A DNA stretch of 64,000 nt from assembly GCF_013705725.1 (NCBI RefSeq), contig NZ_CP055481.1, forward strand, positions 1,240,001-1,304,000, written 5' to 3'. This DNA comes from Klebsiella sp. RHBSTW-00484. Its GTDB lineage: Bacteria; Pseudomonadota; Gammaproteobacteria; Enterobacterales; Enterobacteriaceae. Below are positions 8,755 to 53,260 of the stretch, in pieces (positions within the stretch are counted from its first letter, which is position 1; every line of letters begins with the position of its first letter). The notes beneath the pieces are model-generated. The model saw nothing but the letters and a program-made list of their open reading frames with translations, had not been told where the DNA came from and did not search any database. Made by a program: the position numbers and the translations under genes.

Positions 8755-10595
8755 CTATGGACGAACTGTTGCTGGAGGCCGCTGAGCAGCGCCTGCTGCG
8801 CCCGCTGGATGTCCAGTTTGCGCTGATGGTAGCGCAAGAAGCGCATCCGGCAGTGAAACTGGCCGCCGCGATCCTGAGCCGCGATGCGGGTGAAGGGCAC
8901 GTCTGCTTGCCGATCTCTCGTCTCGAAGATGATGAGCTGCTGAGCGGAAAAGCGGCGGGCCTGCGCGAGCAAATCCTTGAGCTGACAGGTACCCCGGACG
9001 ACTGGTCAACGCTGCTCCTTAGCTCTGAGGCGGTCAGCCGCGGCGAGCGGCCGACGCCCATCATTCTCTGCGGCGAACGGCTTTACCTCAACCGTATGTG
9101 GCGCAATGAACTGACCGTCGCGCGCTTTTTCAACGAAGCCAATCAGGTACTGGATGTTGATGAAGCCCGGTTGGCTTCAACGCTGGATGCGTTGTTTCCG
9201 CCAGGGGATGATATTGACTGGCAAAAAGTGGCCGCAGCGGTTGCTCTGACCCGACGGATTTCGGTGATCTCCGGCGGCCCCGGTACCGGAAAAACCACCA
9301 CCGTCGCCAAACTGTTGGCGGCGCTGATTCAGACGCACGCCAGCCCGCGCTGTCGCATCCGCCTGGCGGCGCCAACCGGCAAAGCCGCGGCTCGCCTGAC
9401 CGAATCCCTTGGCGCTGCGCTGCGCCGTCTGCCGTTAACGGACGAGCAAAAGGCGCTGGTGCCGACCGAAGCCAGCACCCTCCATCGCCTGCTCGGCGCT
9501 CAGCCGGGGAGCCAGCGGCTGCGCTATCACGCCGGAAACCCGCTGCATCTTGACGTGCTGGTGGTCGATGAAGCCTCAATGATCGACCTGCCGATGATGT
9601 CGCGTCTGATTGACGCTCTACCTGAACATGGGCGGGTCATTTTCCTTGGCGACCGCGATCAGCTGGCCTCGGTAGAAGCCGGGGCGGTGCTCGGTGATAT
9701 TTGTGCCTGGGTAAATGCGGGATATACCCCCGAACGCGCGGCCCAGTTGGGGCGATTAACGGGTCAGCCGGTGCCTGCGGGCGAGAGCGAAGCGGCGGGG
9801 GCGCTGCGCGACAGCCTGTGCCTGCTGCAAAAAAGCTACCGTTTTGGCCGTCATTCCGGCATCGGTAATTTGGCTTATGCGGTGAACAGCGGCGAACGTA
9901 GCGCGGTACGATCGACACTGCGCCAACCGTTCGATGACATCACCCTGCATCCGCTAAGTACCACCGAAGAGTACGAGGCGATGCTTATCCAGGCGCAGGC
10001 AGGCTACGGCCGTTTCCTGCAACTGCTGCGCGAACGAGCCGAACCCGAAGAGATGATTGCCGCATTCGGTGAGTTCCAGTTGCTGTGTGCGCTGCGTGAT
10101 GGTCCCTACGGCGTTAGCGGCGTGAATGAACAGCTGGAGCAGATGCTAAATCGCAAGCGGGCGATTACCCTGCCGCGCCATTCACGCTGGTATGAAGGGC
10201 GTCCGGTGATGATCTCCCGCAATGATAGCGCGCTGGGGCTGTTTAATGGCGATATCGGCATTGCGCTGGAAAGAGATGACGGCCTGCGCGTCTGGTTCCC
10301 GATGCCCGATGGCAGCATCAAGTCGGTACAACCGAGCCGCTTGCCGGAGCACGATACCGCCTGGGCGATGACAGTGCACAAATCGCAGGGCTCGGAGTTC
10401 GATCACGCGGCGCTGATCCTGCCTTCCCGCAGCGTGCCGCTGTTGACGCGTGAACTGGTTTACACCGCCATTACTCGCGCCAAACAGCAGCTGTCGATTT
10501 ATGCCGATGAGCAAGTGCTGACTCAGGCGGTTGTCGCACGTACCGAACGCCGCAGCGGGCTGACGGAGATCTTTGCGGGGCAGGGACATCTCTGA
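8751..10595 (+). CDS. recD: RecD, exonuclease V alpha subunit (5'-3' helicase)
   Basis: 614 residues, superfamily 1B helicase; the fast 5'-3' motor of RecBCD, required for its nuclease activity and Chi response. Walker A GGPGTGKT is at residues 175-182. Walker B is [10 protein letters not shown], and the C-terminal motif [12 protein letters not shown] is present. The start overlaps the recB stop by ATGA. It ends 12 bp before the convergent small membrane-protein gene at 10608. Length is close to E. coli RecD (608). Confidence 0.97.
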
Positions 10596-10607
10596 GTCTG
10601 CCGGGCG

Positions 10608-10919
10608 CTAATAAGGGGCGACTAAAGGCATTATCCACAGTAGCGATATGGAGTTCATGGCGAAGAAATACTTCGCCGAACCCTTTGCAAGCGGTGGGGT
10701 TGAGACGTTGGCCACCACGAGGACAATGGCTGAAATCACCAGGTTAATAACGGAGAGGATCATAAAGATAAAGAAAATAAACAGCCCGGCACCGTAAGCG
10801 CTTCCTGACGAGCCGCCGCTCCCCATCATCATCAGCAGAATGAGCAGCCAGGGGTAGAGCGAAATAACGGTGACGATTAATTTTATATTCTTCACAAACC
10901 CGTTTGGTGATTTCTTCAT
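10608..10919 (-). CDS. Small three-helix membrane protein, tandem paralogue A (unknown function)
   Basis: 103-residue hydrophobic protein. Predicted membrane segments are about residues 14-33, 44-70 and 84-102, with a lysine-rich N terminus. It shares SLYPWLLILL, SVINLVISAI and GSAKYFFAMNSISLLW with its neighbour at 10962-11276, so the two are duplicates. I do not recognise the family. It lies between recD and argA, which are adjacent in E. coli, and local base composition is clearly more AT-rich than the flanks, suggesting later acquisition. A 42-bp gap to the upstream paralogue suggests cotranscription. It could be an immunity-type or stress membrane protein, but nothing shows this. Confidence 0.75.
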   Translation of the reverse strand: MKKSPNGFVKNIKLIVTVISLYPWLLILLMMMGSGGSSGSAYGAGLFIFFIFMILSVINLVISAIVLVVANVSTPPLAKGSAKYFFAMNSISLLWIMPLVAPY

Positions 10920-10961
10920 AATGAATACAGCTCCTTTGTGTTCAGTTTGAATATGAAAAGG

Positions 10962-11276
10962 TCATAGACTGAATACGGGAAAAATCATCCATAGTAAAGA
11001 AATAGAGTTTATTGCGAAGAAATAACCGGCGGATCCTCTTTTGGTATCGGTGATATATATATTAGCCAGCACAATAAAAATCACAGAAATAATAAGGTTG
11101 ATAAATGATAATCCCGCCAGCGTCAGGGCAAACGCAGCGCCTGCGCAAAAAAATCCGCCTGCAGGTTTATGTCTTACGTCGAGAAAGGTCAGCAATATTA
11201 TCAGCCAGGGATACAAAGAGAGGATTGCGATCATCACTCTTGTGTAGCGGGTAAACCAGTTTCCCGAGTTGTCCAT
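10962..11276 (-). CDS. Small three-helix membrane protein, tandem paralogue B (unknown function)
   Basis: 104 residues with three hydrophobic segments (about 12-30, 41-72 and 86-104). Shared signatures with the downstream paralogue are SLYPWLIILL, SFINLIISVI and GSAGYFFAINSISLLW. The middle, which is glycine- and serine-rich in the neighbour (GSGGSSGSAYGAG), is instead DVRHKPAGGFFCAG here. Conservation is therefore concentrated in helix 1 and helix 3. The ATG at 11276 is preceded by a GGAGAG-type ribosome binding site. The 150 bp upstream (11277-11428) is AT-rich and probably holds the promoter. Function unknown. Confidence 0.75.
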   Translation of the reverse strand: MDNSGNWFTRYTRVMIAILSLYPWLIILLTFLDVRHKPAGGFFCAGAAFALTLAGLSFINLIISVIFIVLANIYITDTKRGSAGYFFAINSISLLWMIFPVFSL

Positions 11277-11378
11277 TAATGGTGCTCTCCGTATTTATAT
11301 TTTTAATTCCATTTTAGCAAAATATAGGCAAGAAAGGTCTAAAGGGGAAGTGATAATAAAGTAGGTCGATAGTCGGAG

Positions 11379-33851: not shown

Positions 33852-33910
33852 TTCATAAGCTGAATTAGAAAAATGTTTTCATGAACCGGTATCACGAAGT
33901 CGCCCAAAAT

Positions 33911-33934
33911 GTCTCCCACGGATGGGAGACTTTT
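33911..33934 (+). terminator. Rho-independent terminator after pduF
   Basis: A perfect 8-bp stem, GTCTCCCA / TGGGAGAC, with a CGGA tetraloop (33911-33930) is followed by TTTT. It lies 60 bp past the pduF stop and before pocR. The A-rich bases ahead of the stem (CAAAAT) complete a typical intrinsic terminator. Confidence 0.88.
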
Positions 33935-34039
33935 GCTATCGTATTATTCTTTTATCGTTGCCGGTGGATGATGATGAAAGGGCGTAAATATTAATAAAAT
34001 GTTTTATTTATAACAAAAAATTAACTGAGAGGTTTTATC

Positions 34040-34951
34040 ATGATTTCTGCGAGTACACTGAACTCAGAACTCATCAATAAAATCGCACAGGATTTTGCAC
34101 AAGCCACCAGTCTGGCGGTTGTGGTTGTCAATATTCACGGTGATGAAATTTCTGAACTGTTTAATTTCACTCCTTTCTGCCAGCTTATGCGGCAACACCC
34201 CCAGCATAGCACCCGCTGTCGAATGAGCGACCGCTGCGGAGGCCTGGAAGCCTCAAAAACCGATCAGCTCTGTATCTACCGCTGTCATGCCGGGTTAACC
34301 GACTTTTCCATCCCTCTGGTTATTGCCGGGCACCTTGTGGGCTTTGTGCTATGCGGGCAGGTGCGCTTAAGTAACGATGTTGAACTGGTTGACATTTTGA
34401 ACGTCGACGACCGCTGGCAGACCGATCCTGATTTGGTCAAAGCGTTCCGCGACGTACCGGAGATGGACTACTCACGCGTTATTGCTTCCGCCGATTTATT
34501 GAAGCTAATAGTAGAAAACTGTCTTAAAAAACAGCTCAATTTTGTGGTGATTAAAGACAATCCGCAGCAGCCTGAACCCGCGCGCGCCAGCCGGGCCGTC
34601 AGCCCCCATGACAGTAAAATGAAGAAGGCGCTGCGCTATATCGATGCCCATTTGTCTGATGAGCTTCGTCTGGAAGACGTTGCGGCCCATGTTTATCTCA
34701 GCCCGTACTACTTCAGTAAGCTGTTCAAGAAATATCAGGGGATTGGCTTTAACGCGTGGGTTAACCATCAGCGGATGGTGAGCGCCAAAGAGCTGCTGTG
34801 CCACAGCGACTGGAGTATTGCCAGCATTGCCCGGAATTTAGGATTTTCTCAAACCAGCTATTTTTGCAAAGTTTTTCGCCAGGCCTATCAGGTGACTCCG
34901 CAGGCTTATCGCCAGCAAATTAATGCCAGATCACAAACTGAACCATTTTAA
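34040..34951 (+). CDS. pocR: Transcriptional activator PocR (AraC family)
   Basis: 303-residue activator of both pdu and cob/cbi operons, responding to propanediol. The N-terminal PocR sensory domain (about 5-165) carries a Cys cluster (CQLMRQ, CRMSDRCGG, CIYRCHAG) typical of the family. The C-terminal AraC domain (about 200-295) shows two helix-turn-helix units, LEDVAAHVYLSPYYFSKLFK and IASIARNLGFSQTSYFCKVF. Length equals Salmonella PocR. It sits between its two targets. A 105-bp AT-rich leader precedes it after the pduF terminator. Confidence 0.95.
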   Translation: MISASTLNSELINKIAQDFAQATSLAVVVVNIHGDEISELFNFTPFCQLMRQHPQHSTRCRMSDRCGGLEASKTDQLCIYRCHAGLTDFSIPLVIAGHLVGFVLCGQVRLSNDVELVDILNVDDRWQTDPDLVKAFRDVPEMDYSRVIASADLLKLIVENCLKKQLNFVVIKDNPQQPEPARASRAVSPHDSKMKKALRYIDAHLSDELRLEDVAAHVYLSPYYFSKLFKKYQGIGFNAWVNHQRMVSAKELLCHSDWSIASIARNLGFSQTSYFCKVFRQAYQVTPQAYRQQINARSQTEPF

Positions 34952-35045: not shown

Positions 35046-35253
35046 AGCGCAACAAATTAATAATGAGAGAGCGCTAAGCTGCACCAGTTTTTATTTATTT
35101 GATGGGATAGAGTGTTACCAGAAATTGCTTTCAGATCGCCGCAGGCGTAATGAAACTACCTTTGCAATTAAAAACCAAAGACGATGGAAGCCATCCAGCT
35201 TCCACAAAATGTTCCAGGAATAATTCGAGCGAGGATTAATCCAGCTCGAGAAA

Positions 35254-35523
35254 ACCGACAGGTGCCAGGGAAGGGGGTGTAAATCCCCCGCAGCCCCCGC
35301 TGCTGTGATGCTGACGAACCCATATATACGCTAAATAATTCGCGTTGTAGGAAGGCGGCAAACGAGTAAATCCCCAGGAGCTTACACTGGTAAGTGACTG
35401 GGGTGAACAAGTGAAGCCAACGCACATACAACGTGAAGTATGACGGGTATGACCACTGATCCGATTACTGGATTGGGAAGGATGGGGAAGGACGACGCTA
35501 AGCCAGAAGACCTGCCTGTCGGT
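35254..35523 (+). promoter_or_regulatory. Cobalamin riboswitch of the cbi operon, carrying an ERIC insertion
   Basis: The closing helix is a perfect 9-bp pair, ACCGACAGG (35254-35262) with CCTGTCGGT (35515-35523). Inside are a GGGGG-TGTAAAT-CCCCC hairpin (35273-35289), GCAGCCCCCGCTGCTGT, the CCACTG ... GGGAAGG element (35453-35480) and the B12 box AGCCAGAAGACCTGCC (35501-35516). A 126-bp ERIC is inserted between CCCAT (35319-35323) and ATGGG (35482-35486), which can still pair. A separate 7-bp hairpin (TGGAAGC/GCTTCCA, 35185-35204) precedes the aptamer. Adenosylcobalamin binding should block cbiA translation. Confidence 0.92.
35325..35450. repeat. ERIC element inside the cobalamin riboswitch
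   Basis: 126 bp, the canonical ERIC length. The inverted ends read ATACGCTAAATAATTCGCG on the left and ATACCCGTCATACTTCACG on the complement of the right end. The core includes AATCCCCAGGAGCTTAC and TAAGTGACTGGGGTGAAC. The element is one long imperfect palindrome and so would fold as a hairpin in the leader RNA. Confidence 0.92.
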
Positions 35524-35610
35524 GACTACCAACAACTTCGGTGGGAAGTGGGTTGCTCAGATGCGTACAGTCGAAGGACTGGGTTTGCGCGCACCTCTAC
35601 AGCCCTACCA

Positions 35611-47424: not shown

Positions 47425-48240
47425 ATGCTTGCCACGACCGATCTCTGGTTTCGCTATCAGGATGAGCCGGTGCTGAAGGGGCTGACTCTGGATTTTTCTC
47501 ACCACTCCGTGACCGGGCTGGTGGGGGCAAACGGCTGCGGAAAATCCACGCTTTTTATGAACCTGAGCGGCCTGCTGCGCCCGCAAAAAGGGGCGGTGTT
47601 GTGGCAAGGGAAGCCGCTGGATTATGGCAAGCGCGGCCTGCTGGCGCTGCGTCAACAGGTGGCGACCGTATTTCAGGATCCGGATCAGCAGATCTTTTAT
47701 ACCGATATCGATAGCGATATCGCCTTTAGCCTGCGTAACCTGGGCGTCGCGGAAGATGAAATCGCCCGTCGGGTGGACGATGCGCTGACCCTGGTTGATG
47801 CGCAGTCTTTTCGCCAGCAGCCGATTCAGTGTCTGAGCCACGGGCAGAAAAAACGCGTGGCGATCGCCGGAGCGCTGGTGCTGCAGGCACGCTATTTGCT
47901 GCTTGATGAACCCACGGCGGGCCTCGATCCCTCCGGGCGCGCGCAGATGATCGACATCATTAAGCGCATTGTCGATCAAGGCAACCACGTGGTGATCTCC
48001 AGCCACGATATCGATCTGATTTATGAAGTCAGCGATGCGGTTTACGTTTTGCGCCGTGGCGAAGTGCTTGCACACGGCGAACCCGGAGAGGTGTTTGCCC
48101 GCAGCGAGTTAATGACGCAGGCCGGATTGACCCAGCCGTGGCTGGTGAAACTGCATGCGCAGCTGGGACTGCCGTTGTGCAAAACCGAAGGCGAGTTTTT
48201 TGAGCGGATGCGAAATCATGCAATGAAGGAGGCGTCATGA
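47425..48240 (+). CDS. cbiO: Cobalt ECF transporter ATPase CbiO
   Basis: 271-residue ABC ATPase powering CbiMNQ. Walker A is GANGCGKST, the Q-loop region is [11 protein letters not shown], the signature is [15 protein letters not shown], Walker B is [12 protein letters not shown], and the switch His lies in VISSHDIDL. The stop overlaps cbiP as ATGA. Cobalt import in this operon feeds CbiK. Confidence 0.96.
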
Positions 48241-49760
48241 CGCTGGCAATTATGTTACTGGGCACTGCTTCTGACGTCGGTAAAAGCGTGCTGGTGGCGG
48301 GGCTGTGCCGTATTTTTTATCAGGACGGGCAGCGTACCGCGCCGTTTAAATCGCAGAATATGGCGCTCAATTCCGGTATCACACCGGATGGCAAAGAGAT
48401 GGGTCGTGCGCAGATTTTCCAGGCTGAAGCTGCGGGCATTGCCCCGGATGTGCGTATGAACCCGGTGCTGCTCAAGCCGACCAGCGACCGCAAAGCCCAG
48501 GTGGTGCTGATGGGCAAGGTGGCGACCGATATGGACGCGGTGAGCTATCACGAATACAAGCCGCGCCTGCGCGAGCAGATCCTTTCGGTCTATAACAGCC
48601 TGGCCGCGGAGCATGATGTGCTGGTGCTGGAAGGGGCGGGCAGCCCGGCGGAGATCAACCTGCGCGACCGCGACATCGTCAATATGGGTATGGCCGAGAT
48701 GGCGCAGTGTCCGGTGATCCTCGTGGCGGATATCGATCGCGGCGGCGTCTTTGCCTCCATTTACGGCACCCTCGCGCTGCTGCACGACCACGAACGTGCG
48801 CGGGTTAAAGGCGTCATTATTAATAAATTTCGCGGCGACGTGACGCTGCTTTACTCGGGTATCGAGCAGATAGAAGCACTGACCAACGTCCCGGTGCTCG
48901 GCGTGATGCCGTGGCTGGATGTCGATCTCGAAGACGAAGACGGCGTGGCGCTGCAAAAGGGAAAATACCTGCGTACCGACAAGCGCGATATTGAGATTGC
49001 TGTGGTCCAGGTACCGCATATTTCCAACTTTACCGACTTCAACGCGCTGGCGGCGCAGCCGGACGTTCGCGTGCGCTATGTTCGTTACCCGCAGGAGCTG
49101 GCGGGCGCGGATATGGTGATCCTGCCGGGTAGCAAAAATACGCTCGGCGATCTGCTCTGGCTGCGCGAAAGCGGGATGGCGCATGCGGTGCTGCAGGCCC
49201 GGCGTCAGGGCGTGCCGGTGCTGGGGATTTGCGGCGGCTACCAGATGCTCGGCGAAACCATTATTGATGAGGTGGAATCGGGACTTGGCACCCAGCCCGG
49301 GCTAGGGTTACTCAATACCGTGACCCACTTCGCACAGCACAAAACCACCACTCAGGTCACGGCGACACTGGCTCCGGTGCTGCCAGAGTGGCTGGCGGCA
49401 ACGGCAGGGCTTGCCGTACGCGGCTATGAAATTCATATGGGCGAGACCGAGCTGCACGACGGCTGCCGTTCGCTGATGCAATTACATAAGAACGGGCTGA
49501 GCGTGGCGGACGGCGCGGTGAGCGACGATGGTCTGGCGTTTGGTACCTATCTTCACGGCTTGTTTGATAGCGATGAATTCACTCGCGCGCTGGTTAACGG
49601 CCTGCGCCAGCGTAAAGGTCTGGCGGCGCTCGATAGTGACTTCCAGTATGCGCAGTACAAATCCCAGCAGTTCGATCTACTGGCCGACGCGATGCGCCAG
49701 AATATTGATATCGAAAAAATCTACGCCATCATGCGCCAGCATCAGGAGCCTGTATGCTGA
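48237..49760 (+). CDS. cbiP: Adenosylcobyric acid synthase CbiP
   Basis: 507-residue amidotransferase that amidates the b, d, e and g side chains. The N-terminal ATP domain starts [19 protein letters not shown] with a P-loop-like TASDVGKS. The C-terminal glutaminase has [15 protein letters not shown] with the nucleophile Cys and [15 protein letters not shown] with the triad His. It overlaps cbiO and cobU (7 nt). Confidence 0.95.
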
Positions 49761-50299
49761 CTTTAGTTACTGGTGGCGCGCGCAGCGGCAAAAGCCGTCA
49801 CGCCGAAGCGCTGATCGCCCACTCGCCGCAGGTGCTGTACATCGCCACTTCACAGATTTTTGATGATGAGATGGCGGCGCGGATCCAACACCACCGCGAC
49901 GGCAGGCCCGCGCACTGGCGCACGGCCGAGCGCTGGCAGCAGCTTGATGAGCTGATAACGCCGGATAACCATCCCGAAGAAGCGATCTTGTTGGAGTGTA
50001 TTACCACCATGGTCACCAATTTGCTGTTTGCGCTGGGCGGCGACAGTTCGCCGGACGGCTGGGATTACGCGGCGATGGAGCGGGCTATTGACGCCGAAAT
50101 CGCCGTGCTGATTGCCGCCTGTCAGCGCTGCCCGGCTCACGTGGTGCTGGTAACCAACGAGGTGGGGATGGGGATCGTGCCGGAAAACCGTCTGGCCCGC
50201 CATTTCCGCGATATTGCCGGGCGAGTCAACCAGCGCCTTGCGGCGGCGGCGGATGAGGTCTGGCTGGTGGTGTCGGGCATCGGCGTAAAAATCAAATAA
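49754..50299 (+). CDS. cobU: Adenosylcobinamide kinase / guanylyltransferase CobU
   Basis: 181-residue bifunctional enzyme that phosphorylates adenosylcobinamide and activates it with GTP. The P-loop GGARSGKS (7-14) and His46 (RIQHHRDG), the guanylylated residue in Salmonella, are present. The C terminus [10 protein letters not shown] matches Salmonella, so the gene is whole. Its product, adenosylcobinamide-GDP, is the substrate of CobS, which is missing next door. Confidence 0.95.
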
Positions 50300-50300
50300 A

Positions 50301-50348
50301 CCAGGCGCTCCGTACCGGGAGTTATTCTTCCTGCTGGCTCTGCCATGA
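50301..50348 (+). pseudogene. cobS: Remnant of the 3' end of cobS
   Basis: In Salmonella and E. coli, cobS (about 247 codons, cobalamin synthase) lies between cobU and cobT. Here the gap from the cobU stop to the cobT ATG is 74 bp. In the frame 50301-50348 it reads [15 protein letters not shown] then TGA, closely resembling the CobS C terminus as I recall it from Salmonella (GELIFLLALL). The rest of cobS is gone, so this looks like an in-place deletion. The match is short, hence the moderate confidence. The last bases also form an 8-bp palindrome (GCTGGCTC/GAGCCAGC, 50333-50354). Confidence 0.6.
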
Positions 50349-50373
50349 GCCAGCCAACATGACGAGAATCTCT

Positions 50374-51429
50374 ATGCACAGCTTAACCTCTCTACTGGGC
50401 GCGATCCCTGCGCTTGATGAAAATGCAATGGCGCGCGCGCAACTCCATATTGATGGCCTGCTTAAGCCGCCGGGAAGCCTTGGACGCCTTGAAGACCTGG
50501 CCGTACAGCTCGCGGGAATGCCCGGTCTTGAAGGCGTGCCGCAGGTGAAAAAGAAGGCGCTGCTGGTGATGTGCGCCGACCACGGCGTTTGGGATGAAGG
50601 GGTGGCGATTTCGCCCAAAGTGGTGACCGCAATTCAGGCGGCCAATATGACGCTGGGCAAGACCGGCGTTTGCGTGCTGGCGGCGCAGGCAGGGGCGGAA
50701 ATGCATGTGATTGACGTCGGGATTGATGCCGAGCTGATTCCTGGCGTTATCAATATGCGCGTGGCGCGTGGTTGCGGAAATATCGCCGTCGGCCCGGCAA
50801 TGAGCCGTGGTCAGGCCGAAGAGCTGCTGCTGGAGGTGATTCGCTATACCCGTGGGCTGGCGGAAGATGGCGTCACGCTGTTTGGCGTTGGTGAGTTGGG
50901 GATGGCGAATACTACCCCGGCGGCGGCGATCGTCAGCGTTCTGACCGGTAGCGATGCGCAAGAGGTGGTGGGGATTGGCGCGAATTTACCGCTGACCAAA
51001 GTCGGTAACAAAGTGGAAGTGGTACGTCGAGCTATCGCCGTTAACCAGCCTGACGCGAATGATGGTCTGGACGTGCTGGCGAAAGTGGGCGGTTTTGATT
51101 TATTGGGGATGGCGGGCGTGATGCTGGGCGCGGCTTCCTGTGGATTGCCGGTACTACTCGATGGCTTCCTGTCTTACGCGGCGGCGCTGGCGGCGTGCCG
51201 AATTGCGCCGGAAGTGAAACCCTACCTGATACCGTCGCACTATTCGGCAGAGAAGGGCGCACGCACGGCACTGATGCACCTGGAGCTGGATCCGTATCTC
51301 AATATGGGCATGCGTCTGGGGGAAGGCAGCGGCGCGGCGCTGGCTATGCCAATCGTCGAAGCGGCCTGTGCGATGTACCACGATATGGGCATGCTGGCGG
51401 CGAGCAATATTGTTTTGCCAAAAGGCTGA
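50374..51429 (+). CDS. cobT: Nicotinate-nucleotide:dimethylbenzimidazole phosphoribosyltransferase CobT
   Basis: About 351 residues. It makes alpha-ribazole phosphate, the lower ligand of cobalamin. ATG 50374 ([22 protein letters not shown]) aligns with the Salmonella start and has GACGAGA upstream; ATG 50359 would add five residues (MTRIS). [16 protein letters not shown], the nucleotide region [15 protein letters not shown] and [12 protein letters not shown] with the catalytic Glu are seen. It is the last gene of the cbi operon. Confidence 0.95.
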
Positions 51430-51526: not shown

Positions 51527-51603
<77 letters not shown>

Positions 51604-51613
51604 TCCGTCTTTC

Positions 51614-51733
51614 TACGTCGTATTTCAAACCACATGTACGTTGGCTTTCCTCGTTCACCTCAGTCACTTACTTATGTAAGCTCCTAAGGATTCACTGCGT
51701 CGCCGCCTTCCTGTGATTCGAACTACTCGTATA
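51614..51733. repeat. ERIC element between tRNA-fMet copies 1 and 2
   Basis: About 120 bp with the ERIC core (CAGTCACTTACTTATGTAAG, CTCCTAAGGATTCAC) and decayed ends (TACGTCGTATTTCAAAC; GATTCGAACTACTCGTATA). It lies wholly in the spacer, so the two tRNAs are 147 bp apart instead of the 47 bp seen between copies 2 and 3. Confidence 0.85.
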
Positions 51734-51750
51734 AATAATCAGATTTTAAT

Positions 51751-51827
<77 letters not shown>

Positions 51828-51874
51828 TCCGTCATTACTCTTCCATCGAGTAACGTTACTTCTCTGATTTTAAT

Positions 51875-51951
<77 letters not shown>

Positions 51952-52162: not shown

Positions 52163-53260
52163 ATGAAAGGACGTTGGGCAAAATACGCAGTAACAGGGGC
52201 AATGCTGGCAATGCTGGCCGCCTGTTCCTCAAAACCGACCGATCGCGGTCAGCAGTATAATGAAGGCAAACTCACCCAGCCGTTTTCATTGGTTAACCAA
52301 CCTGATGCGGTCGGCTCACCGATTAACGCTGGTGACTTCTCCGAGCAGGTGAGCAAAATCCGTAGCGCCTCGCCGCGTCTCTATAACAGTCAGAGCAACG
52401 TCTACAACGCGTTGCAGGATTGGCTGCGCTCCGGCGGTGATACCCGCACGCTGAGCCAGTTTGGTATCGACGCCTGGCAGATGCAGGGGACGGACAACTA
52501 CGGTAACGTCCAGTTTACTGGCTACTACACGCCGGTGGTGCAGGCGCGCCATACTCGCCAGGGCGAGTTCCAGTATCCGATTTACCGTATGCCGCCCAAG
52601 CGCGGTAAGCTGCCGTCCCGCGCCAGCATTTACGCGGGCGCTCTGAGCGACAACTACATCCTCGCCTACAGCAACTCGCTGATGGACAACTTTATAATGG
52701 ACGTGCAGGGCAGCGGCTATATTGATTTTGGCGACGGTTCGCCGCTGAACTTCTTTAGCTATGCCGGGAAAAACGGCTGGTCCTATTACAGCATCGGTAA
52801 GGTGCTTATCGATCGCGGCGAAGTGAAGCGTGAAGATATGTCGATGCAGGCGATCCGCGAATGGGGTGAAAAGCACAGCGAGGCGGAAGTTCGTGAACTG
52901 CTGGAGCAGAACCCGTCGTTCGTCTTCTTTAAGCCGCAGTCTTTCGCACCGGTGAAAGGCGCCAGCGCGGTGCCGCTGATTGGCCGTGCATCGGTCGCCT
53001 CCGATCGTTCGATTATTCCACCGGGCACCACGCTGCTGGCGGAAGTGCCGCTGCTGGATAATAACGGTAAGTTTAACGGCCAGTACGAGCTGCGCTTAAT
53101 GGTTGCCCTGGACGTTGGCGGTGCGATTAAGGGCCAGCACTTTGATATTTACCAGGGCATTGGGGCTGATGCCGGGCATCGTGCCGGTTGGTATAACCAC
53201 TATGGTCGCGTATGGGTGCTGAAAAACGCGCCGGGCGCTGGCAACGTCTTTAGCGGTTAA
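52163..53260 (+). CDS. mltA: Membrane-bound lytic murein transglycosylase A
   Basis: 365-residue outer-membrane lipoprotein that cleaves peptidoglycan glycan chains to 1,6-anhydro ends. The signal peptide ends in lipobox LAAC with Cys21 as the lipid site. The catalytic Asp is D328 (QHFDIYQG), matching Asp308 of mature E. coli MltA. The 3D domain segment RLMVALDVGGAIKGQHFD is intact. A ribosome binding site AAGAAGAG precedes the ATG. The 210 bp upstream, to the tRNA promoter, shows no other gene. Confidence 0.96.
   Translation: MKGRWAKYAVTGAMLAMLAACSSKPTDRGQQYNEGKLTQPFSLVNQPDAVGSPINAGDFSEQVSKIRSASPRLYNSQSNVYNALQDWLRSGGDTRTLSQFGIDAWQMQGTDNYGNVQFTGYYTPVVQARHTRQGEFQYPIYRMPPKRGKLPSRASIYAGALSDNYILAYSNSLMDNFIMDVQGSGYIDFGDGSPLNFFSYAGKNGWSYYSIGKVLIDRGEVKREDMSMQAIREWGEKHSEAEVRELLEQNPSFVFFKPQSFAPVKGASAVPLIGRASVASDRSIIPPGTTLLAEVPLLDNNGKFNGQYELRLMVALDVGGAIKGQHFDIYQGIGADAGHRAGWYNHYGRVWVLKNAPGAGNVFSG

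Follow-up and report, generated by a model that had tools for sequence, protein, structure and literature searches.

A cobS relic in the cbi operon of Klebsiella and an intact cobS at a second site point to gene-by-gene resolution of two cobUST sets

Introduction

The described system closest to the locus studied here is the cbi-cobUST operon of Salmonella and Citrobacter, which has the same gene order, cbiP-cobU-[cobS]-cobT, and the closest sequences. CobU is the AdoCbi kinase/AdoCbi-P guanylyltransferase. A different arrangement, yeeA-cobUST, occurs in Escherichia sp. E1V33, Kluyvera, Trabulsiella and Kosakonia cowanii. Horizontal acquisition of the Salmonella cob operon is stated in a passage of PMC2394748, which cites Lawrence and Roth. 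With regard to the proteins, a passage of PMC8749415 reports that overproduction of CobS is lethal in E. coli and that CobC or PspA relieves this effect, and passages of PMC8749415 and PMC8092220 put forward, as their authors' proposal, a CobS-anchored complex that includes CobU.

Here we describe a cbi operon from Klebsiella sp. RHBSTW-00484 in which, compared with the Salmonella and Citrobacter operons, cobS has been cut down to its last codons. The window, that is, the whole stretch of DNA that was analyzed, comprises 64,000 nucleotides (contig NZ_CP055481.1, positions 1,240,001 to 1,304,000). An earlier note, made from its letters and open reading frames, had drawn attention to the shortened operon.

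Results and Discussion

The cob genes of the cbi operon

A cobalamin riboswitch (RF00174, 68 bits; window positions 35243..35533, + strand) lies upstream of the cbi genes. The last cbi gene before cobU is cbiP (48237..49760, + strand; NF001989, E=1e-200), which marks the left side of what we call site A. It is followed by cobU (49754..50299, + strand; NF004469, E=3.2e-71, 181 aa) and cobT (50374..51429, + strand; NF000996, E=1.6e-132), both of the site-A type and both full matches to the curated models, in agreement with the earlier observation that CobU is complete and that the reading resumes cleanly at CobT. In a protein tree, the window cobU clustered with other site-A cobU sequences and with those of Citrobacter, Salmonella and Escherichia. 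The cobT start was placed at the ATG at 50374 because an in-frame ATG at 50359 is missing from several relatives in the junction alignment. An mltA-like gene (52163..53260, + strand) is the right-hand marker of site A among relatives, so that the site reads cbiP-cobU-[cobS]-cobT-mltA in the window. This gene is 94-98% identical next to the site-A cob genes in most genus loci compared; it follows most Klebsiella operons, whereas it was not found behind the operon in Citrobacter and Salmonella loci. The names mltA, yeeA and sbmC are those that we presume these neighboring genes to carry.

Two other features of the window were observed near the operon. Three tRNA genes (Rfam) lie 3' of cobT on the - strand (51530-51951) and are a possible insertion point of the cbi cluster. 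A match to the sRNA family STnc230 (RF02075, 66 bits) occupies 33898-33977 on the - strand, just upstream of an open frame at 34040-34951.

A 3' relic of cobS between cobU and cobT

The interval between cobU and cobT (50300-50373) is 74 nt long and too small for cobS. As it lies between two genes that are complete by curated models, the claim that cobS is missing from this place stands, and the frame at 50301-50348 does encode a peptide resembling the end of CobS. The earlier note had staked its reading on the relatives' own cobS 3' ends, and this comparison came out in its favor. Eight intact cobS 3' ends, each with the sequence following it, were sought as references, and all seven that could be aligned scored above shuffled sequence. 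Local alignment gave a score of 66 over 58 aligned columns for Citrobacter sp. R56, 55 for 'Enterobacter sp. 10-1', 44 and 43 for Citrobacter Cu233 and MGH106, 37 and 44 for two Raoultella and 37 for Salmonella diarizonae; for each of the seven references, none of 2000 mononucleotide shuffles matched the observed score (shuffle maxima 25-27).

The cobS-homologous portion of the gap extends over approximately 50318-50376. Its first part (50318..50348, + strand) holds the last codons and the stop TGA (50346-50348) of cobS and aligns to A-type cobS 3' ends. The remainder up to cobT (50349..50373, + strand) aligned to the spacers of Citrobacter R56 and Enterobacter sp. 10-1 and corresponds to the former cobS-cobT spacer, in which the ribosome-binding region of cobT presumably lies. 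Between the cobU stop and the recognizable cobS end is a deletion scar (50300..50317, + strand), which falls outside the cobS alignments and is not clearly cobS. As judged from these alignments, we regard it as confirmed that the operon lost cobS and that the gap is its 3' relic plus the cobS-cobT spacer. Over eight species, the gap accumulated 34 changes in 74 sites against 67.7 expected from the rate at third positions in codons 1-59 of the adjacent cobU (p=4.5e-6), which is half that rate; the scar had 8 substitutions in 18 sites and the spacer 9 in 25.

A junction of this kind could in principle arise from an assembly collapse or a sequencing error. However, the cobU-relic-cobT junction, with species-level differences, is present in 8 of 20 genus genomes, i.e., in seven besides the window's own, as well as in a contig labeled Escherichia sp.; K. 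spallanzanii, K. michiganensis, K. oxytoca, K. grimontii and K. indica are among these genomes. The comparison of the junction across strains that the earlier note had called for thus reveals a cobS loss reaching beyond this strain, and we dropped the artefact explanation, whose probability is next to nil. The K. pneumoniae-like group (three genomes) has its own, shorter cobU-cobT junction. The junction of the Escherichia contig (L065, labeled Escherichia sp. MOD1-EC7003) is Klebsiella-like, with a cobU that is 97% identical, and this contig is possibly a contamination; querying E. coli genomes with the cobU-cobT stretch in a near search produced no hit.

The relic also contains a hairpin, GCTGGCTC-TGCCAT-GAGCCAGC (50333..50354, + strand), which lies upstream of cobT and covers the former stop codon of cobS. 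All 8 pairs are formed in each of the eight relic genomes, with changes to G-U only (counted on the best stem per stretch, with no shuffle control). The 8 pairs also occur in 11 of 11 Citrobacter rows, in Intestinirhabdus and in 'Enterobacter sp. 10-1'; both Salmonella sequences form 7 of the 8 pairs, and the three K. pneumoniae-like genomes have a comparable stem, likewise with 7 of 8 pairs. In three of three Escherichia it was not found as the best stem per stretch. This comparison sought 21 rows, 3 of which were missed by the search pattern. When 13 stretches were folded separately, the full stem appeared in 11, the window being the sole relic genome among them. We read the hairpin as part of a cobT leader, and it looks like a leftover that has been kept. 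We propose that the site-A relic survives at its 3' end because this stretch, with the hairpin and the ribosome-binding region, would serve as the leader of cobT.

An intact cobS at a second site

If cobS were absent from the whole cell, a case that the earlier note had raised from a cbi operon without this gene, both halves of B12 (adenosylcobinamide-GDP and alpha-ribazole phosphate) would be made and never joined. A family search of the complete genome (6.94 Mb, 28 contigs), which that note had suggested, detected one CobS (PF02654, E=1.8e-54, C1:2271359-2272066), and this is a complete copy approximately 0.98 Mb from the window. The gene (G000:C1:2271338-2272078; start at L046:9339) encodes 246 aa and matches TIGR00317 with E=2e-72 and 243.9 bits against a cut-off of 110, covering residues 1-245 of 246. 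The motif HLDGLADTCDG (FHLDGLADTCDG), which we take to be the conserved aspartate-bearing motif of a CobS cytoplasmic loop, is present in all eight site-B cobS of the window's clade; cytoplasmic loop 2 of CobS is discussed in a part of PMC8092220. The remote protein is a predicted adenosylcobinamide-GDP ribazoletransferase and would perform the joining step. Because an intact cobS exists at a second locus, the predicted block after adenosylcobinamide-GDP and alpha-ribazole phosphate does not follow. All 20 genus genomes gave exactly one cobS match each, and a cell-wide loss of cobS is hardly credible. The same genome has one cobC match above cut-off and two cobA/btuR matches.

The second locus, site B, has the order sbmC-yeeA-[cobU]-[cobS]-[cobT]-ahcY-like-HPP. 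At the gathering score, no cobalamin riboswitch or other Rfam match was found in six site-B loci, and a riboswitch at this site was dropped from consideration. Expression of cobS from site B is presumed. In the window's genome, ISL3-family and IS481-like transposase genes flank the site-B cobS region (L046:5444-6664 and 10189-11346), the second beginning approximately 110 nt past the genome's only cobS; neither was found in the other 19 site-B loci examined.

Five complementary arrangements in the genus

The 20 genus genomes distribute cobU, cobS and cobT over the two sites in five complementary patterns. In pattern (i), found in eight genomes including that of the window, site A has cobU and cobT, and site B has a cobU fragment and cobS. 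Three genomes, including K. pneumoniae ATCC 13883, have cobU and cobT at site A and cobS and cobT at site B (pattern ii). Six Raoultella-like genomes keep cobU and cobS at site A and cobT at site B (pattern iii). 'Enterobacter sp. 10-1' alone combines a complete cobUST at site A with cobT at site B (pattern iv), and in the two genomes of pattern (v) there is no cobUST at site A and a complete cobUST at site B. No genome lacks a full copy of any of the three genes. Patterns (ii) and (iv), in which cobT is doubled (4 of 20 genomes have both the A and the B copy), are natural intermediates. With respect to pattern (iii), a blastn search of the six Raoultella-like loci for pieces of cobT at site A gave short, weak matches only; in one of these genomes (Raoultella G018) the site-A contig ends less than 200 nt past cobS, and the sole cobT match of the genome is that at site B.

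Origin of the two cob sets

Phylogenetic trees of 46-50 proteins were used to examine the ancestry of the A and B copies. Site-A cobS and cobT clustered with Citrobacter, Salmonella and Escherichia, whereas the B-site rows stood apart, the 13 of cobS as one clade (SH-aLRT 98) and those of cobT as one group (99). Forcing all 24 genus cobT rows into one clade was rejected (p-AU 0.0028), and the A and B copies of cobT have separate ancestry. The same test for cobS did not quite reject a single clade (p-AU 0.054); for this gene, the separation of A from B therefore depends on synteny and on support values. It should be noted that position and ancestry do not coincide in Escherichia: its yeeA-site genes, located in the same neighborhood as site B, cluster with A-type sequences.

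A simpler history would be a single relocation, in which the operon cobS moved to the yeeA site and no second cob set ever existed. The single cobS of the window's genome, the two transposase genes close by and the p-AU value for cobS would fit such a move. However, site B has a full cobUST in two genomes, cobS-cobT in three, cobT in seven and a cobU remnant with cobS in eight; relatives have B-type genes at site B, and in the trees the B-site copies of cobS and of cobT each make up a separate group. In addition, no such transposase genes were detected in G005, the nearest relative, and transfer of cobS by way of these genes was dropped for this reason. Relocation is therefore very improbable.

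Instead, two redundant cobUST sets have very probably been resolved divergently, gene by gene, leaving a pathway that would be complete but split over two loci. Under this gene-by-gene resolution, the genus ancestor would have possessed two sets, B between yeeA and the ahcY-like gene and A at the end of the cbi operon. The A set, which is Citrobacter/Salmonella-like, probably arrived together with cbi. With two copies, single genes would have become dispensable, and deletions could have occurred at either site in combinations that differed by lineage. In the lineage of the window, which comprises the K. oxytoca complex and K. indica, A would have lost cobS, and B would have lost cobT and most of cobU, such that CobU and CobT would now come from A and CobS from B. 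The order of the losses, an acquisition of A by horizontal transfer and a greater age of B are suggested by neighborhood and tree, which give a direction and no dates; the horizontal origin of Klebsiella site A is our own inference. The flanking-gene tree requires the pattern to have changed four times or more. The K. pneumoniae-like genomes are located apart from the window's clade in this tree (support 93/96, not starred) and the two junctions also differ, so site-A cobS was probably lost twice.

This situation resembles the divergent resolution (reciprocal loss) of duplicates, as there are likewise two redundant copies, lineage-specific losses and a full set in 20 of 20 genomes. Unlike usual duplicates, the Klebsiella copies are operon ends of different ancestry that were resolved gene by gene. 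Since few losses are involved, complementary retention is plausible by chance, and the patterns alone are no proof of selection for a full set.

A conserved CobU fragment ahead of the remote cobS

In comparison with a full yeeA-cobUST, site B of the window's clade has only cobS intact; cobT is gone, and cobU is reduced to a fragment. A CobU-like open frame of 65-77 aa precedes cobS in all eight genomes of this clade and was not found in the other 12 genus genomes. In the window's genome it encodes 70 aa (L046:9061-9273, G000:C1:2271060-2271272). The fragment is homologous to CobU residues 1-58 (1c9k, E=1.1e-12), scores 43.4 bits against NF004469, under the cut-off of 161, and is short in comparison with the approximately 180 aa of a complete catalytic domain. 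The lysine of the nucleotide-binding P-loop GKS is lost in 8 of 8 fragments and kept in two intact controls, whereas RIQHHRD is invariant in all ten rows. The latter we take to be the His-46 motif, with His-46 being one of its two histidines; His-46 is reportedly the guanylylation site of CobU (Thomas et al. 2000).

The fragment might be an ordinary decaying pseudogene, whose conservation predates its truncation or reflects an RNA or antisense constraint. The loss of the P-loop lysine throughout and the variable length of the frame are consistent with decay. However, as this loss is shared by all eight genomes and the distance from the fragment ATG to the cobS ATG is constant (271-283 nt in 8 of 8), inactivation and truncation most likely occurred before these genomes diverged and are shared and old. 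Across the eight genomes, substitutions at codon positions 1, 2 and 3 of the fragment numbered 20/12/62 (binomial p=1e-10 for position 3), against 29/25/26 in the 76-nt tail directly 3', between the fragment and cobS. The tail changes at 1.05 per site, which is the rate of the fragment's third positions; that third positions change as fast as adjacent DNA argues against an RNA constraint. The tail was used as a control in place of the upstream stretch (L046:8528-8863), which holds a 111-aa open frame (changes 40/39/77) and is therefore no neutral control. The pooled pN/pS of the fragment was 0.25, and a codon model rejected omega=1 (2dlnL 67; a test on likelihoods only, in which kappa was varied over a grid under the omega=1 null). 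Substitution patterns thus point clearly to a protein-level constraint on the fragment, which appears weaker than that on intact A-site cobU (7/0/54 at the same codons), and this difference is again in line with decay. AlphaFold2 prediction (10-row alignment, rows 1-9 with one extra codon at the start) had low confidence, with a mean pLDDT of 51 and a pTM of 0.28, and gives no support for a fragment that folds stably by itself, as would be expected of a pseudogene. Taken together, we consider the pseudogene explanation rather unlikely.

The fragment looks like a second leftover that has been kept. A short, conserved leader frame of 10 codons precedes it (L046:9032-9064; MLSLQQVPPR in 7 of 8 genomes). 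The stop of the leader overlaps the fragment start by ATGA, and a conserved TATACT-like stretch is located before the leader; a similar leader frame occurs ahead of the full site-B cobU in two genomes (G001 and G002). It is possible that the putative product partners or limits CobS. The more specific idea, that the 5' third of the site-B cobU became a new small protein, made by way of a coupled leader and acting with CobS at the membrane, for example by partnering it or braking its dosage within the cobamide-assembly complex that has been proposed, is speculative and, as it stands, unlikely.

Split cob sets in other genera

We also surveyed 295 genomes of family scope, the tables of which were read by eye. 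A cobU-cobT pair without intervening cobS was detected in G144, G245, G249 and G052; cobU was located away from cobS-cobT in G080, G203 and G280; and in G155 each of the three genes was on a contig of its own. In one genus-level group, three genomes (G121, G230 and G302, the last at locus L180) had cobS-cobT without a cobU match, and G163 and G197 had two complete cobUST sets. For 8 of these 13 scattered-set genomes (G144, G245, G249, G155, G052, G080, G280 and G302), the loci agree with the tables. The genomes of family scope with dispersed cobU, cobS and cobT (groups g62, g126, g137 and g34) have the missing gene elsewhere, at sites and in combinations that differ from those in Klebsiella. 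Split cob sets are thus recurrent, that of the window being one of several. In the cobU-cobT loci without cobS (L163-L168 for G144 and G245, L169-L170 for G249, L174-L175 for G052), cobS is found elsewhere; in G052, the lone cobS adjoins an mltA-like gene. Among the literature matches listed, no title or beginning of an abstract describes this cob split, which may still have been published.

Implications for B12 synthesis in Klebsiella

Read alone, the cbi operon of the window suggests a broken B12 synthesis, and the B12 capacity of Klebsiella needs to be judged genome-wide. Within the genus, the gene-by-gene resolution of two redundant operon ends that differ in origin can be followed at fine sampling, with intermediates still extant. 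The riboswitch-headed operon is without cobS in one clade and without cobT in another, so that it becomes testable whether the dosage of CobS has to follow the operon. In addition, the conserved CobU fragment could reveal a contact between CobU and CobS.
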